The notes under the pieces were generated by a model, which was given only the letters and a program-made list of their open reading frames with translations, was not told the origin of the DNA and did no database searches. From the NCBI GenBank assembly GCA_016401345.1, contig JAEACG010000002.1, forward strand, positions 434,001 to 498,000: a stretch of 64,000 nt of DNA. Reading direction: 5' to 3'. The position numbers and the translations under genes were made by a program. Positions 4,389 to 45,416 of this stretch are shown here, piece by piece. Origin of the DNA: Fictibacillus nanhaiensis (lineage in GTDB: Bacteria > Bacillota > Bacilli > Bacillales > Fictibacillaceae). How positions within the stretch are numbered: the stretch's first letter is position 1; every line of letters starts with the position of its first letter.

Positions 4389-4440
4389 GTTTAACACTCT
4401 TTTCAAAAAGATTGTTGCTTTGAACTCCTTGTCACCCTTG

Positions 4441-4600
4441 ACAATTGATTGGAGTGCAAGGTGCGTGCTTACCACCTGAAATACATCTTCCATGGCATGG
4501 GACGAGGGAGCTTACTCCGCTAGCATTTAACTTGTAGACGCAAGAGCAAGGAGCATAAAGGCAGGCAGTTTGAAATGTGGAAAGCGAGCTGCTTTATAGA
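4441..4600. repeat. Decayed copy of the Bacillaceae palindromic repeat (tentative)
   Basis: The left part GATTGGAGTGCAAGGTGCG and the right part TGGAAAGCGAGCTGC resemble the ends of the better preserved element at 55724-55978 (GATTGAAACGTAAGGTGCG and GCGGAAAGCGTGCAGC). The middle does not align by eye. The stretch has no convincing reading frame. I call it a degraded relative of that repeat with low certainty. Confidence 0.4.
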
Positions 4601-4626
4601 GAATGTGGGATCGAAATGAGAAGGCC

Positions 4627-4658
4627 CTGTCACTTTAGGTGGCAGTGTCTTTTTGGAG
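4627..4658 (+). terminator. Possible weak terminator hairpin
   Basis: CTGTCAC / GTGGCAG (one G-T pair) is followed by TGTCTTTTT. No gene lies directly upstream, so it may belong to the decayed repeat. Confidence 0.35.
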
Positions 4659-4683
4659 TGTACACGTTATGAGTTGAAATTTA

Positions 4684-4791
4684 TTTTTATATGATTAAGG
4701 GCAAGTTTTATGTGATAACCTTAAATTTTTATGTGATGCCTGCTCTTTTTTATGTGATGTTACTCCATTTTTATAGGATGGTGTATTTTTA
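4684..4791 (-). repeat. 21-bp-period degenerate tandem array (SYKN/SHKN type)
   Basis: Copies of a TTTTTATGTGAT-like core end at 4695, 4716, 4736, 4758 and 4779, so the spacing is 21, 20, 22 and 21 bp. Read on the minus strand, the three best copies stay in one frame as heptads S-(Y/H)-K-(N/K)-x-x-x, with a stop codon after a few units. No start codon with a ribosome-binding site was found. It is the only clear structure in the 676-bp gap between yrrS and yrrT apart from the terminator and decayed repeat. Confidence 0.7.
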
Positions 4792-4950
4792 GCAGCAGGC
4801 CGACCACCATGACTTCCATTTTCCATGCACAAATGCCAGCTGCAGAGAGCTGGCCATCACCTAACTCCATTCGTAAAGTCGAAATGTATCTGTAATTTTT
4901 GCCAATAGAAAAAGATTTTTCATTTGAAAATTTTTAGTAATTATGATAAT

Positions 4951-8970: not shown

Positions 8971-9287
8971 GTTTGCGTGTGTTGATAAGTCAACATCTAT
9001 GGAAGAATGAAAAAAGCCTTTTCGATTGCAAAATTAAAGATTTTGCTGAATTATTACTTTGAATCCCCCGCAGGGTACACTGCTAACAGTTTTAGAGGCC
9101 CTTTGAACCATTTTGATTCTAATTAATAAAAGATATATTCACCTTCCATTTAAGGCATACGATGCAAATTTTTGATCACAATTTAGACAAATTTACTTCA
9201 CGCTTTTGTCAAAATCTACTTGGTAGAATAGGGTCTTACCTATGTTATCCTTTATATAGAGATTAGGAGTAGGAGGTAGACACCGCT
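8971..9287. other. Intergenic region between mccB terminator and yrhC
   Basis: A stretch of 317 bp with no supported gene. A small palindrome GTTGATAAGTCAAC lies at 8981. Near the end AGGAGTAGGAGG forms the yrhC ribosome-binding site. I could not settle on a promoter. Confidence 0.5.
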
Positions 9288-9806: not shown

Positions 9807-11476
<1,670 letters not shown>

Positions 11477-17072: not shown

Positions 17073-17191
17073 ATGTTCGTAAGATTTATATAAAAAAATA
17101 AATCAAAAAAATAAACTTCATGGTCGATTTTTGTTTGAATATTTTTTATAATAAGAAAAGAGTGGAAATATGTACATATGGGGGAGAAATA

Positions 17192-18973
17192 ATGTTATTA
17201 CAAGATTTAAGACAAACATGGGAACTTGATTCCGTTTTTCCTGGTGGTAGTGAATCGAAAGAACTATTAGCTGAAATAAATTGGACGGAGAACGAAGCGA
17301 AAGAATTAGCAAAAAAAGCAGATTCCTTCACGTTTTCAAACGAAACTTTCTTATCATTGATCAAAGAGCTTCAAAGCTTTTCTGAAAGATTATCAACTGC
17401 TGGAGCTTTCATTGGCTGTTTGATCGCTCAAGATGTAAAAGACAAGAAGGCGATGGCTCTTCGTGGTAGATTAGAATCGGTATACGCAGCATTCTCTAAC
17501 GTGGGTTCAGTTATCGATCAAAAGCTAATGGATATCTCTGAAGATGCATGGAAAGATCTGATGAGTCTTCCTGAGTACGAACATATTGCGTTCTCTTTGA
17601 ACGAGAGAAGAATGAATGCAAAAGAAAAGCTTGGTATCTCAGAAGAATCATTGATCAATGATCTAGCTGTAGACGGCTATCATGCTTGGTCAACGTTATA
17701 CGATCTAGTGGTGGGTAGAATCTCGATCAAAGTTGAGATTGATGGAAAGGAAGAAGAACTCTCTGTAGGGCAAGCGGAGAATAAGTTTTCAAGTCCTGAC
17801 CGCAACGTAAGAAAAGATACGTTTGAAAAATTTGTTCAAGCTTGGGATCACGAAGGTGAGTTTTGTGCGGCTTCTCTAAATCACATCGCAGGATTTAGAA
17901 ACGAGATCTATAAGCACAGAGGCTGGGAAGAAACATTAAAAGAGCCTCTTGCGATCAATCGTATGAAGGAAGAGACTCTCTCAGCGATGTGGAACGCGAT
18001 CTCTTCTCAAAAAGAGATCTTCGTTAAATACTTAGATCGAAAAGCTAAACTTTTAGGTCTAGATAAATTAAGCTGGTATGATGTTGATGCACCATTATCT
18101 TCTGCAAACAGCAAGATGAGTTATGACGAAGCGGCTCAATTTATCGTAGAGCATTTCCGTACGCTCGCACCTAAGATGGCTGATTTCTCTGAAAAGGCAT
18201 TCCTAGACGGCTGGATTGAAGCAGAAGATCGTTCTGGGAAAAGACCAGGAGGATTTTGTACCGGGTTCCCAACTAAGAAAGAAACAAGAATCTTTATGAC
18301 GTTCTCAGGAACACCAAGCAATGTTTCTACGTTAGCACATGAGCTTGGTCATGCGTTCCATACGGATGTGTTAAAAGAGATGCCATACTATGCAACAAAT
18401 TATGCGATGAACGTTGCTGAAACAGCTTCCACTTTTGCTGAGATGATCGTTGCTGATGCAGCCGTTTCAAACGCAAAATCGAAAGAAGAGAAAATTGCGC
18501 TTTTAGAAGATAAAGCTCAACGTTCCGTAGCCTTCTTTATGAATATTCATGCTCGTTTTCTGTTTGAAACGAGAATGTACGAAGAAAGAAAAGCGGGTCA
18601 GTTATCAGTTGAACGTCTATGTGAACTGATGGAAGAGGCTCAAAAAGAAGCATTTAACGGTGCACTCGATGAGTATCATCCTTACTTCTGGGCGTCTAAG
18701 CTTCATTTCTATATTACAGACGTACCGTTCTATAACTTCCCGTATACATTCGGTTATCTGTTCTCTGCAGGAATCTATGCAAAAGCGAAAGAAGAAGGCC
18801 CTTCATTCGAAGAAAAATATATTGCACTCCTACAAGATACAGGAAAGATGGAAGTGGAAGAGCTCGCACAAAAACATCTTGGAATAGATGTTACGAAACA
18901 AGATTTCTGGTTAAAAGGTATTGAGCTTGCTGCAGCCGATGTAGAAGAGTTTTTAGCATTAACAGAAGAATAA
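17192..18973 (+). CDS. pepF: M3-family oligoendopeptidase (PepF type)
   Basis: A cytoplasmic zinc metallopeptidase of 593 aa that cuts short peptides. The zinc motif H-E-L-G-H begins at about residue 383 in LAHELGHAFH; the third ligand Glu is in NVAETASTFAEM about 25 residues later. The GYLFSAGIYAKAK and YNFPYTFGY regions are typical of PepF. ATG 17192 is chosen because GGGGAG lies 6 bp before it; an upstream in-frame ATG at 17120 gives a non-homologous, low-complexity extension. It is a single-gene unit. Confidence 0.93.
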   Translation: MLLQDLRQTWELDSVFPGGSESKELLAEINWTENEAKELAKKADSFTFSNETFLSLIKELQSFSERLSTAGAFIGCLIAQDVKDKKAMALRGRLESVYAAFSNVGSVIDQKLMDISEDAWKDLMSLPEYEHIAFSLNERRMNAKEKLGISEESLINDLAVDGYHAWSTLYDLVVGRISIKVEIDGKEEELSVGQAENKFSSPDRNVRKDTFEKFVQAWDHEGEFCAASLNHIAGFRNEIYKHRGWEETLKEPLAINRMKEETLSAMWNAISSQKEIFVKYLDRKAKLLGLDKLSWYDVDAPLSSANSKMSYDEAAQFIVEHFRTLAPKMADFSEKAFLDGWIEAEDRSGKRPGGFCTGFPTKKETRIFMTFSGTPSNVSTLAHELGHAFHTDVLKEMPYYATNYAMNVAETASTFAEMIVADAAVSNAKSKEEKIALLEDKAQRSVAFFMNIHARFLFETRMYEERKAGQLSVERLCELMEEAQKEAFNGALDEYHPYFWASKLHFYITDVPFYNFPYTFGYLFSAGIYAKAKEEGPSFEEKYIALLQDTGKMEVEELAQKHLGIDVTKQDFWLKGIELAAADVEEFLALTEE

Positions 18974-18978
18974 AATAG

Positions 18979-19016
18979 AATCGGCAGTTCCTTGAATAGG
19001 AATTGCCGATTTTTTG
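18979..19016 (+). terminator. Intrinsic terminator after pepF
   Basis: Stem AATCGGCAGTTCCT / AGGAATTGCCGATT (one mismatch) followed by T-run. Confidence 0.92.
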
Positions 19017-19112
19017 CTTTTTTGGAGTTTATAGAACATGGAAACTTTGGCTGTTATTGAGCATGAATTGTAAACCTATGCACAGTTGCATATGGAGGAA
19101 GGGGGGTATTGA

Positions 19113-19190
19113 ATGGATTATTTGTATCAAACTTTGTCGACTCGCCGATTTATGAGCAAATCTCGCCGTATTATTGGAGAAACTCGCTGA
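19113..19190 (+). CDS. Possible 25-aa peptide reading through the first repeat units
   Basis: ATG follows a very purine-rich GGAGGAAGGGGGG site. The frame runs 25 codons and enters the 21-bp array in phase (STRRFMSK, SRRIIGE, TR-stop). The ribosome site is strong but translation is unproven, and the repeats continue past the stop. Confidence 0.35.
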   Translation: MDYLYQTLSTRRFMSKSRRIIGETR

Positions 19191-19244
19191 ATGAACACTG
19201 AAATTTCTAGAATTATTTTAAAAAGTGTTAGGATTACAAAGGTG
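19140..19244 (+). repeat. 21-bp-period degenerate array (TRRI type)
   Basis: Units begin at 19140, 19161, 19182, 19203 and 19224, exactly 21 bp apart. The first three carry ACTCGCCGAATT-like cores, the fourth TTCTAGAATT, and the last is diverged. In plus-strand frame the heptads read TRRFMSK, SRRIIGE, TR-stop-MNTE, ISRIILK, SVRITKV. The same family recurs at 45262-45345. It lies between the pepF and pssA terminators and fills much of that 359-bp gap. Confidence 0.75.
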
Positions 19245-19284
19245 TATACCTAATGGGGTATTCGTTTAAACAATGGAACGCAAA

Positions 19285-19318
19285 ATAAAAAGCTTGGCAA
19301 CACCATGCCAAGCTTTCT
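19285..19318 (-). terminator. Intrinsic terminator of pssA
   Basis: Stem AAAGCTTGGCA / TGCCAAGCTTT. On the minus strand it is followed by TTTTATTTTG. Confidence 0.88.
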
Positions 19319-19332
19319 TAATGACCTATTAT

Positions 19333-19878
19333 TCATCTTTTTTCAATCGTAATGGTACTAATCATAAGTACAGATAACCCGAACGTCAGGAACATATAAA
19401 GAAATCCTGGGACTAGATCAACCGTCAGATAACCAGCAGCCATCAAACAACCAGCTAAAGTGATCGGCATACCCACAAATGAACCCGTAAACTCTGTGAT
19501 GTTAAACCGAGCTAACCGTATCGCACCGCAGACAATAAAGATAATGGTGAAGATCATGCCTGATACACCAAACTGATGAAGGGCGACCTGATAGATTAAA
19601 AATGCAGGCGCAATTCCAAATGAGATAAGGTCACAAAGAGAGTCTAATTGTTTCCCAAACTCGGATTCGATATTTAACTTTCGGGCAACCATTCCATCAA
19701 AACGATCAAACAAACCGGCTAAGAAGATTAAGATGAATCCTAATTTCAAATCTCCTGAGATCATAATTAATAACGCCAAAGTTCCTAGTGATAAATTGAT
19801 CAATGTTAAGAAGTTAGCGGTTTGTCCCTTCACTTTCTTAAACGTTGAATCAATACGCTCTCTTTCGAGCATGAACAT
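19333..19878 (-). CDS. pssA: CDP-diacylglycerol-serine O-phosphatidyltransferase
   Basis: A CDP-alcohol phosphotransferase (181 aa, about six membrane segments) making phosphatidylserine, the precursor of phosphatidylethanolamine. The signature D-G-x2-A-R-x8-G-x3-D-x3-D is intact in DRFDGMVARKLNIESEFGKQ and the following LDSLCD. ATG 19878 follows GAGGAG by 7 bp; a longer in-frame TTG overlaps that site. psd is not adjacent. It is a single-gene minus-strand unit between a repeat array and the mrp operon. Confidence 0.93.
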   Translation of the reverse strand: MFMLERERIDSTFKKVKGQTANFLTLINLSLGTLALLIMISGDLKLGFILIFLAGLFDRFDGMVARKLNIESEFGKQLDSLCDLISFGIAPAFLIYQVALHQFGVSGMIFTIIFIVCGAIRLARFNITEFTGSFVGMPITLAGCLMAAGYLTVDLVPGFLYMFLTFGLSVLMISTITIEKR

Positions 19879-20044
19879 ACAATCACTCCTCAAACGGGTA
19901 ACCGGCTAAAACGCAGTAAGTGCGCATCTTCCAAAGAGATAAACAATGATCCTTTGAAATATAAACTTATCCTTGTTCGTTGCTTAAAATTATATACCCA
20001 TTCTAATCATTATATGACAACGAGAAAGTGATTAATAGTAGATA

Positions 20045-33353: not shown

Positions 33354-34748
33354 ATGGACATTATTATTATTTTATTAGCTTTATTCTTCTTAATGTTCGT
33401 AGCATACAGAGGATTCAGCGTTATTTTATTCGCGCCGATCGCTGCTTTGTTTGCTGTATTGCTTACTGAACCTGGTCACGTATTACCCTTTTTCTCAGGA
33501 GTGTTCATGGAGAAAATGGTTGGTTTTATTAAACTCTATTTCCCGGTCTTCTTACTAGGGGCGATTTTCGGGAAAGTTATTGAAATGTCAGGATTTGCAA
33601 AATCAATCACTCAGTTTGTCATCAAACTGATCGGACCTGCTAGAGCAATGCTTGCAATCGTACTTGTTGGTGCAATTTTAACGTATGGTGGGGTCTCTCT
33701 GTTTGTTGTTGCTTTTGCTCTCTACCCGTTTGCATCTGAACTTTTTAAACTTGCTGATATTCCTAAAAGACTTATACCGGGTACGATCGCGTTAGGTGCT
33801 TTTACTTTTACAATGGATGCTTTTCCAGGGAGTCCGCAGATTCAGAATATAATTCCTACATCTTTCTTCGGAACAACAACATGGGCTGCACCGTGGCTCG
33901 GGTTTATCGGAGGAATGTTTGTTTTCATATTGGGTATGATCTACCTTGAGTGGAGACGTAGACAAGCGGCTGCAAAAGGTGAAGGATACGGAACAGGACA
34001 TACCAATGAGCCTGAAAAGCTAGATTCTGAAAATCTACCAAATGCTTTTATAGCGATTCTTCCGCTTATTCTAGTAGGAGTGTTCAATAAATGGTTCACC
34101 GTCTTAATTCCACAGTATTACGGTAAGACGTTTGATTTTTCTGCTATTGGTATGAAGAACGTGCCTGAGATTCAGATCCCATCACTTGCTGCTGTATGGG
34201 CAGTTGAAGGAGCTTTGATCATTGGTATCGTTACAGTTCTTTTGTTCTCTTTCAAGAGAATTAAAAACAACTTTAATAAAGGAATTAATCTATCCATTGG
34301 CGGAGCGTTACTGGCAACATTAAATACAGCATCAGAGTATGGATTTGGTGGTGTGATCGCAGCACTTCCTGGCTTTACTGCAGTAAACTCGGCGATGTCG
34401 AATACGATTAAAGACCCGTTGATCAATGAAGCGATTACGACTACGACGTTAGCAGGTATTACAGGATCAGCGTCTGGCGGGATGAGTATTGCACTCGCAA
34501 CGATGAGTGAAACGTATATCGCACAAGCAGACAAACTAGGAATTGATACAGAAGTACTTCACCGTGTTGCTTCTATGGCGAGTGGTGGAATGGATACACT
34601 CCCTCACAACGGTGCTGTAATTACGTTGTTAGCCGTTACAGGTTTAACTCACAAACAGGCGTATATCGATATTTTTGCTATGACGATCATTAAAACGATA
34701 GCCGTGTTTGTAATCATTGGTTTGTATTACGGATTTGGTATCGTTTAA
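33354..34748 (+). CDS. GntP-type permease, probable 3-hydroxybutyrate transporter
   Basis: A 464-aa membrane protein with about 12 hydrophobic segments. It belongs to the gluconate/GntP-like permeases annotated as D-beta-hydroxybutyrate permease when next to the dehydrogenase. The paired motifs LTYGGVSLFVVAFALYPFA and ITGSASGGMSIAL plus GGMDTLPHNGAVIT are typical. ATG 33354 follows GGGGGA by 7 bp. The substrate call rests on the neighbouring dehydrogenase. The sigma-54 promoter upstream makes it inducible by the adjacent activator. Confidence 0.85.
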   Translation: MDIIIILLALFFLMFVAYRGFSVILFAPIAALFAVLLTEPGHVLPFFSGVFMEKMVGFIKLYFPVFLLGAIFGKVIEMSGFAKSITQFVIKLIGPARAMLAIVLVGAILTYGGVSLFVVAFALYPFASELFKLADIPKRLIPGTIALGAFTFTMDAFPGSPQIQNIIPTSFFGTTTWAAPWLGFIGGMFVFILGMIYLEWRRRQAAAKGEGYGTGHTNEPEKLDSENLPNAFIAILPLILVGVFNKWFTVLIPQYYGKTFDFSAIGMKNVPEIQIPSLAAVWAVEGALIIGIVTVLLFSFKRIKNNFNKGINLSIGGALLATLNTASEYGFGGVIAALPGFTAVNSAMSNTIKDPLINEAITTTTLAGITGSASGGMSIALATMSETYIAQADKLGIDTEVLHRVASMASGGMDTLPHNGAVITLLAVTGLTHKQAYIDIFAMTIIKTIAVFVIIGLYYGFGIV

Positions 34749-45194: not shown

Positions 45195-45255
45195 TGAATA
45201 AAAATACTTTGTAGGTGAAGGGTGAGGGTATAAAAAGCTGAATATTTGACTAGAT

Positions 45256-45345
45256 ATGTCGACTCGCCGAATTAAGCTAAAAACTCGCCGTATTAACGCC
45301 TGAATTTCTAGAATTGATACTGAAAAATCTAGAATTAATGCTTAG
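45256..45345 (+). repeat. 21-bp-period degenerate array (TRRI type)
   Basis: Four units start at 45262, 45283, 45304 and 45325, exactly 21 bp apart. Two carry ACTCGCCGAATT-like cores and two carry TCTAGAATT. In plus-strand frame they read TRRIKLK, TRRINA-stop, ISRIDTE, KSRINA-stop. An ATG at 45256 opens MSTRRIKLKTRRINA but lacks a ribosome site. It sits between two terminators in the 378-bp holA-rpsT gap. Confidence 0.75.
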
Positions 45346-45416
45346 AATACCATGTGAAGTTTAAGTGGCACATGAATGAACTCCATAGTGTAACAGTTTC
45401 GATGTACAAACATACT

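Follow-up and report, generated by a model that had tools for sequence, protein, structure and literature searches.

An old, dispersed intergenic element of helically phased 21-bp units in the genus Fictibacillus

An array of five 21-bp units between two genes of Fictibacillus nanhaiensis was found to be the middle part of a longer element of ca. 165 bp. This is a real, old intergenic DNA element, and the reading of its units as coding sequence was rejected. The stretch of DNA that was analysed, hereafter the window, has a length of 64,000 nucleotides. In Fictibacillus, the element is non-coding, its composition follows the turns of the DNA helix, and its copies show a characteristic position and polarity relative to the neighbouring genes. 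The array might represent a row of usually five candidate protein sites that serves as a boundary behind gene ends. This is the interpretation that we tentatively prefer, with a likelihood that we place slightly below even.

The unit starts given in the preliminary description (19140, 19161, 19182, 19203 and 19224) were confirmed exactly, and the TCGC/TTCT cores start 2 bp into the units (19142, 19163, 19184, 19205 and 19226). TRF and an exact-seed repeat finder reported nothing at 19113–19244, the units being too degenerate for these tools. A lag scan of non-ORF DNA from 72 sources yielded 3567 scan windows with at least 40 of 84 identities at lag 21, compared with 0–232 at each of ten other lags between 16 and 26 (232 at lag 20). 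Because most of the 72 sources were chosen for holding the repeat, this excess is evidence of the period and not of density. A model-free BLAST search with window positions 18500–19900 returned a match of 81 bp (85% identity, E = 4.9e-19) at another place in this genome, together with dozens of weaker matches across the genus. Two further places in the same genome were detected with a single unit (up to three mismatches), and a two-core pattern with the same tolerance matched 25 places in the 4.28-Mb genome versus two for the reversed control. These results confirmed that the 21-bp units exceed chance.

The architecture of the element was derived from an alignment of 21 full-length copies selected for having both ends. 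The left end GGGTAT was present in all 21 copies, as expected from this selection, and was followed by a leader that contains TTGTCGA..TGTCGAC and terminates in TTGTCGAnnnATGTCGAC. Units 1–3 broadly follow TCGCnGnATTA, with the consensus TCGCCGATATATG in unit 1 and TCGCnGnATTA in units 2 and 3, and units 4 and 5 follow TTCTAGAATTA; the right end reads ATACCCC..GGTAT. The usual copy thus consists of five units placed 21 bp apart. Both ends were located by pattern in 77 of 111 copies, and the distance between them was 142–143 bp in 60 of these 77 and 141 or 144 bp in five. Seven copies measured 121–123 bp, corresponding to one unit fewer, and five lay off the 21-bp steps (132, 139 and 152–154 bp). 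The features identified in the window are as follows.

4686..4790, + strand: array of another 21-bp family with a TTTATGTGATG core and about five units (lag scan; TRF finds part of it, with period 21)
9041..9077, + strand: probable element remnant, right end (orthologue alignments; element at the same locus in G024 and G025)
17120..18973, + strand: upstream gene, M3 family oligoendopeptidase, pepF-like (NCBIfam TIGR02290, 684.9 bits)
18981..19014, + strand: terminator-like hairpin and T run behind the pepF-like gene (by eye)
19098..19265, + strand: whole element (model match 3–170 of 173)
19104..19109, + strand: left end GGGTAT, which together with the G run before it belongs to the supposed ribosome site (alignment of selected copies)
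19110..19141, + strand: leader, whose conserved module is the right part TTGTCGAC at 19134–19141 (alignment, column information)
19142..19162, + strand: unit 1, TCGCCGATTTATG (unit reading, alignment)
19163..19183, + strand: unit 2, TCGCCGTATTA (unit reading, alignment)
19184..19204, + strand: unit 3, TCGCTGAATGA (unit reading, alignment)
19205..19225, + strand: unit 4, TTCTAGAATTA (unit reading, alignment)
19226..19246, + strand: unit 5, degenerate, TGTTAGGATTA (unit reading, alignment)
19246..19261, + strand: right end ATACC-N6-GGTAT, inverse of the left end (alignment, family logo)
19333..19893, − strand: pssA, downstream convergent gene (NCBIfam TIGR00473, 138.1 bits)
45220..45355, + strand: second copy of the element, with four units, between convergent holA and rpsT (63.7 bits)

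The window element therefore sits between the terminator-like hairpin of the pepF-like gene and the convergent pssA. Its model score is not independent because the copy was among the 21 sequences of the model; model-free support was provided by the single-unit search and the BLAST search of the region. The remnant at 9041–9077 was not significant by the model alone (E = 1.7).

The element was widespread in the genus. Of 18 Fictibacillus genomes, 17 had 23–73 matches each to a sequence-only model at E ≤ 0.01, the weaker matches including sub-families, and G021 was the one genome with no match to the model. In a control with 400 kb of G025, two places matched at E = 1e-8 or better and a third at 0.01, and the same 400 kb reversed gave a single match with E = 6. 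Recurrence in intergenic regions of related genomes, which the preliminary description had anticipated for a genuine element, was seen across Fictibacillus. A strict two-core pattern recovered 19 stretches from the collection, originating from Fictibacillus, Mesobacillus, Bacillus sp. ISL-37 and ISL-41, and one metagenome-assembled genome. Order-wide, a pattern with up to two mismatches matched 38 of 299 genomes (20 of 116 genera); the reversed control matched 27 genomes, mostly once, and single-match genomes are therefore no evidence. Three or more places per genome were counted by hand in 24 genomes of 10 genera, compared with eight genomes of five genera for the reversed control. At 22 loci outside the genus (L235–L256), the chained steps measured 21 bp 41 times, 20 bp seven times and 22 bp once, in a search whose query demanded one 21-bp step, in which three of the 22 loci gave no chain and some of the chains of two units could be coincidental or stem from coding sequence. 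Several loci of g64 (genus probably Mesobacillus) shared a different leader, and one G101 locus carried a leader similar to that of Fictibacillus, both judged by eye. No array excess was detected in 100-kb stretches of G015, G017 and G018, which belong to other families of the order; these had 3, 2 and 1 lag-21 clusters, respectively, at most one above the best other lag. Overall, the element is common in one genus, with likely relatives in several others.

The preliminary description had read the array as a heptapeptide repeat, coding or decayed, with conservation in codon phase and a strong ribosome site in front of ATG 19113. The unit length is indeed divisible by three, and ATG 19113 opens 25 codons ahead of the first stop. 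However, column information by codon position amounted to 1.04, 1.06 and 1.11 bits, revealing no codon phase, and the proposed frame was open in 21 of 90 copies versus 21.5 expected from column-shuffled copies. None of the other five frames was open more than two standard deviations above expectation in these 90 copies, and one minus-strand frame was open less often than expected (28 vs. 41.1). The purine-rich GGAGGAAGGGGGG taken for a ribosome site overlaps the left end GGGTAT of the element. Three genomes keep five units at this locus, and the supposed start codon corresponds to ATG (G000), GTG (G003) or GGA (G024); in G003, a stop closes the frame after 11 codons. Moreover, relatives outside the genus show 20-bp steps. 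Decayed coding repeats are contradicted by the same three properties, namely the absence of codon phase, stops at their expected frequency and a start codon that is not conserved. Since neither codon-phased conservation nor stop avoidance was found, the coding heptapeptide repeat was rejected, and we give it almost no credence.

The 90 distinct copies contained 69 orthologous pairs in 20 groups; after exclusion of four pairs that differed in length, 65 pairs remained, which represented 19 of the 20 groups. Group means of orthologue divergence were 13% in conserved columns versus 48.5% in variable columns, and the conserved columns diverged less in all 19 groups; this comparison favours conserved cores, as both members had to match the model and the column classes were derived from an alignment that included some of the tested copies. 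The adjacent 20 bp on each side of the element diverged by 66% and 50%, values inflated by the ungapped comparison. Two loci found via their flanking genes showed the same direction, more weakly, with core versus spacer differences of 8/132 versus 25/96 and 23/165 versus 34/120. Among different copies, the variable columns agreed at 0.339, with 0.346 expected by chance; as the spacers of different copies match at chance, there is no sign of recent copying. Many copies are also common to orthologous loci. Dozens of old copies thus keep the core while most of the remainder randomises. This retention of the core looks like selection on its sequence; gene conversion could mimic such conservation, although the chance-level identity of the spacers speaks against it. 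The other reading in the preliminary description was an element spreading in steps of two helical turns. The two-turn phasing of that proposal holds, whereas recent spreading is opposed by the chance-level spacers and the shared orthologous loci.

These data also bear on the possibility of a selfish or relic miniature mobile element, in which GGGTAT and ATACCC would be transposase ends, the units transposase sites, and the insertions would prefer DNA behind terminators. Such an origin would fit the inverted ends, the fixed architecture and the dispersed copies, as well as the polarity and the terminators described below. Terminal inverted repeats, a criterion for MITEs, were present as GGGTAT...ATACC in 21 of 21 aligned copies, which were chosen for such ends. 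However, the sample contained no young copies (variable columns 0.339 vs. 0.346), partial copies at orthologous loci point to the decay of old ones, and the core is kept in orthologues. At the loci examined, no clean empty site was recognised, the array-less genomes being too diverged around the array to define one, and inspection by eye recognised no target duplication. We regard a mobile element as a rather improbable explanation.

The position of the element was analysed with 108 distinct copies scoring 30 bits or more, which came from 100 loci and from the window. These loci had been selected for matching and comprised the strong G024 and G025 matches and some of the weaker matches, with G000 contributing 15 loci and G004 five. 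None of the 108 copies overlapped a gene by more than 60 bp according to our own simple gene calls. In tandem gaps, 62 of 70 copies pointed with the upstream gene and eight against it; a further 35 copies lay in convergent gaps, where direction is uninformative, two in divergent gaps and one without a left gene. Co-directional copies in tandem gaps were located at a median of 76 bp behind the stop codon. For comparison, a 400-kb stretch of G025 had 93 gaps of 230 bp or more, of which 57 were tandem, 20 divergent and 16 convergent. Of 54 left gaps that measured up to 160 bp and followed a gene on the same strand, 30 contained a terminator-like hairpin ahead of the element, whereas 0.8 would be expected from shuffles. 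Local G-C skew was positive in 87 of 108 copies, a count confounded with the local gene strand, and gene direction, rather than replication orientation, was judged primary for the polarity of the element. Outside Fictibacillus, polarity was weak: 21 loci, some of them orthologues, divided into six with the upstream gene, four against it (one of which overlaps a called gene), five convergent, three divergent and three without a left gene. These were 21 of 38 loci, eight from Fictibacillus having been skipped and nine having fewer than three units. Family matches were obtained for 16 of 20 sampled upstream genes (NCBIfam 9/10, Pfam 7/10), and their functions were mixed. High expression of the upstream genes was considered and rejected, as their codon usage was no different (90 vs. 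623 genes, P = 0.57).

Alternatively, the element might act at the RNA level, as a transcribed regulator or part of a 3′ UTR that is recognised by an RNA-binding protein, and its polarity with the upstream gene is in favour of this. In addition, GTT occurred 12–14 bp before GGGTAT in 18 of the 46 copies (out of 90) whose ungapped frame shows GG(G)TAT, which may just reflect terminator T runs. GGGTAT resembles the −10 box of sigma-B promoters. As to a sigma-B promoter at the left end, the modest upstream enrichment of GTT is confounded because of the terminator T runs, and the logo showed no conserved −35 box. Against an RNA element, RNAalifold gave −4.4 kcal/mol with both-sided change in one of 12 pairs, 30 of 54 left gaps place the copy past a terminator-like hairpin, and the spacing of the units is helical. 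Half of the RNAalifold pairs (6 of 12) join the two ends of the element. A search of window positions 18900–19400 against Rfam returned no family at its gathering score, with four sub-threshold matches, the best at 21.6 bits versus 110 needed. RNA structure was therefore rejected by RNAalifold and Rfam, and an RNA-level role is very unlikely.

The two-helical-turn spacing suggested in the preliminary description was borne out by the steps in end-to-end distance and by the 10.5-bp variation in A/T content. Over the five-unit stretch, A/T content varied mainly with a period of 10.5 bp and not of 21 bp: the 10.5-bp harmonic was the largest in 89 of 90 copies, a set that includes orthologues. Among 24 arrays of other families kept by hand, this harmonic ranked first in 11, compared with 14.8% of 1732 overlapping background windows. 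This background comparison was preferred over a column-permutation test because permutation ignores base clumping. The less conserved part of the unit was enriched in G/C at offsets 13–15 (A/T 0.46 vs. 0.64 in the flanks), and the leader and the right end were not phased. Predicted curvature, calculated from wedge values, exceeded the mean of a copy's own dinucleotide shuffles in 87 of 90 copies; it was only modestly high, however, as 12 of 200 column permutations keeping the 21-bp period reached the observed value. In arrays such as those at 34053, L189, L169 and L141, predicted curvature was no higher than background. Intrinsic curvature was accordingly dropped as a trait shared by all array families, and composition phasing held better across them.

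The best named rival to our reading is that the copies are strong DNA gyrase sites like E. coli BIME-2, where the 10.5-bp alternation of A/T and G/C would wrap DNA around the enzyme directly downstream of genes, at places in which positive supercoils collect. The gyrase sites of E. coli follow a 130-bp motif in which two arms, whose GC content varies at 10.75 bp, flank a 36-bp centre; the sites are enriched behind operons with high transcription, and BIME-2 elements show an enrichment of gyrase cleavage (PMC6379681). The 10.5-bp composition phasing over five units and the location behind genes agree with this explanation. However, the published motif is one of degenerate composition, whereas the core TCGCnGnATTA is conserved here; the upstream genes are also without codon bias. 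To our knowledge, gyrase is universal, and the core is patchy, with three or more places in 24 of 299 genomes of the order (eight in the reversed control). The conserved core argues for a protein more specific than gyrase, and we regard gyrase sites as an unlikely, if serious, explanation.

If the array is a row of protein sites forming a boundary, a sequence-specific DNA-binding protein would occupy each unit core, and the two-turn spacing would place all predicted sites on one face of the DNA. The helix-phased base composition between the cores would suit the DNA to bending or wrapping, and the short inverted ends GGGTAT and ATACCC would bound the site. The bound proteins could then form a polar nucleoprotein complex just behind the terminator of the gene. 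Such a complex might act as a boundary that restricts read-through or confines the supercoils driven by transcription between adjacent units. We infer protein binding and DNA wrapping, that is, a repeated protein on one face of bent DNA, from the conserved core, the free but composition-phased spacers, the two-turn steps and the defined ends. The boundary role is suggested by position and direction, which point to the end of the transcription unit.

Arrays with the same 21-bp period and other cores were common in the same genomes. In 400 kb of G025, 22 lag-21 clusters were detected and 14 were kept by eye; several of the 22 are expected by chance because other lags between 15 and 27 gave 2–15 clusters each. 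The lag scan of the 72 sources contributed 10 of 23 rows, the 13 dropped being four copies of the element, one likely orthologue of a kept row and eight weak or chance rows. The 24 kept arrays were sorted by eye into 12 families. The stretch from G016 was left out since, unlike other stretches, it had a mean of 43–44 of 84 identities at every lag.

At two loci, different array types were found in different genomes. Between pepF and pssA, the element was present in G000, G003 and G024 and half of it in G002 and G023, and G025 and G011 carried a TTCCGTGATTA array instead; inspection by eye revealed neither array type in the other 11 genomes. Between holA and rpsT, the element was found in four genomes and a remnant in G002, and G025, G011, G001 and G021 carried arrays with four other cores, two of which were alike (ATTAAG-); no array was seen by eye in the remaining nine genomes. 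These patterns are only suggestive of the replacement of one array family by another at the same locus, and convergent gaps may simply collect such arrays. In a broader and doubtful extension, Fictibacillus chromosomes would carry about a hundred ‘phased boundary arrays’, usually of about five two-turn units behind a gene. These would belong to several families that differ in their core and presumably in the protein that binds them, and one family could take the place of another at a given intergenic locus. If this were true, what the cell requires at such a site would be an array and not a particular sequence, and the arrays would constitute a chromosome-organising element of bacteria whose sites and proteins turn over together.

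Further repeats and arrays were also observed. In the window, positions 4397–4582 form a dispersed repeat with many matches elsewhere in the genus (77–91% identity, BLAST), and positions 4579–4854, which contain the TTTATGTGATG array, form another with several genus matches (70–88%, BLAST); both look younger than the studied element. Arrays of ATTAAGTC were present in L189 (near 6806) and L163 (near 1207). On the other strand, the L189 array starts with TATGTCGAGCTGTGTCGAATCGCC, close to the leader of the element, and L163 is similar by eye, which suggests a shared leader combined with different units. In the holA–rpsT gap of L322 (G021), 21-bp units resembling TGTCGAAnCATCTAGAATAAT seemingly merge the leader motif with the motif of units 4 and 5 (by eye), and the same gap in L321 (G007) holds at least three tandem copies of a unit of ca. 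120 bp starting with GATAAGCGGCGAATCTCGTCGTCAG. In the 600–1000 kb region of G025 (L195–L214), TGAGCGAAAC/GTGCGCGAA arrays at offsets 7084 and 17738 share the tail GCGAACGTGTAA.AAATA.AAGAACACGTACCG, which has an inverted repeat of its own and parts of which recur at 10257, 39229, 58706 and 78095. Finally, a TCGTGGATATATGGC array in L055 (1309–1434) is followed directly by a TCGCCG-type array.

Beyond gyrase sites, we know of few regularly phased, nucleosome-like DNA sites in bacterial chromosomes. The present element adds one genus with dozens of defined, old and oriented arrays that combine two-turn units, half-turn composition phasing and fixed ends. With these arrays, the question of how transcription-unit ends are marked in these bacteria becomes testable. 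Different cores in different lineages would, in addition, provide an example of joint evolution of a binding protein with dozens of its sites.

No description of the repeat was found among the titles and abstract openings listed by searches of mainly open-access papers, and the element was compared with known families of dispersed repeats. The BOX elements of Streptococcus pneumoniae consist of a left module, a variable number of middle units and a right module, with a stem-loop and longer units. The present element is likewise modular (left, middle units, right), dispersed and intergenic; it does not belong to BOX, whose definition includes a conserved stem-loop, as no fold was supported here. 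The bcr1-type repeats of the Bacillus cereus group are mobile elements of ca. 155 bp with target duplication; compared by description only, they resemble the element in being dispersed and intergenic in Bacillaceae. REPs are palindromes, whereas the element consists of directly repeated units that share a conserved core and for which no fold was supported, and membership in the BIME/REP class of stem-loop-forming imperfect palindromes was rejected (RNAalifold, −4.4 kcal/mol). The element resembles BIME-2 in being intergenic and the gyrase sites of E. coli in its ten-bp composition phasing and its position behind genes (PMC6379681). The closest described repeats, as far as we know, are the STAR elements of Staphylococcus aureus. 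These have a 14-bp GC-rich core, T(G/A/T)TGTTG(G/T)GGCCC(C/A), spacers of at least 40 bp and 1–6 motifs at the studied loci, and their loci differ between species (PMC3532100). Like STAR (PMC3532100), the element is made up of dispersed intergenic direct repeats with a conserved core, locus-specific spacers and a ‘start signature’ before the array. The element is not a STAR, its core and 21-bp period being different. Unlike STAR, it combines this period with usually five units, inverted ends and a helix-phased composition, and its loci are shared between species.
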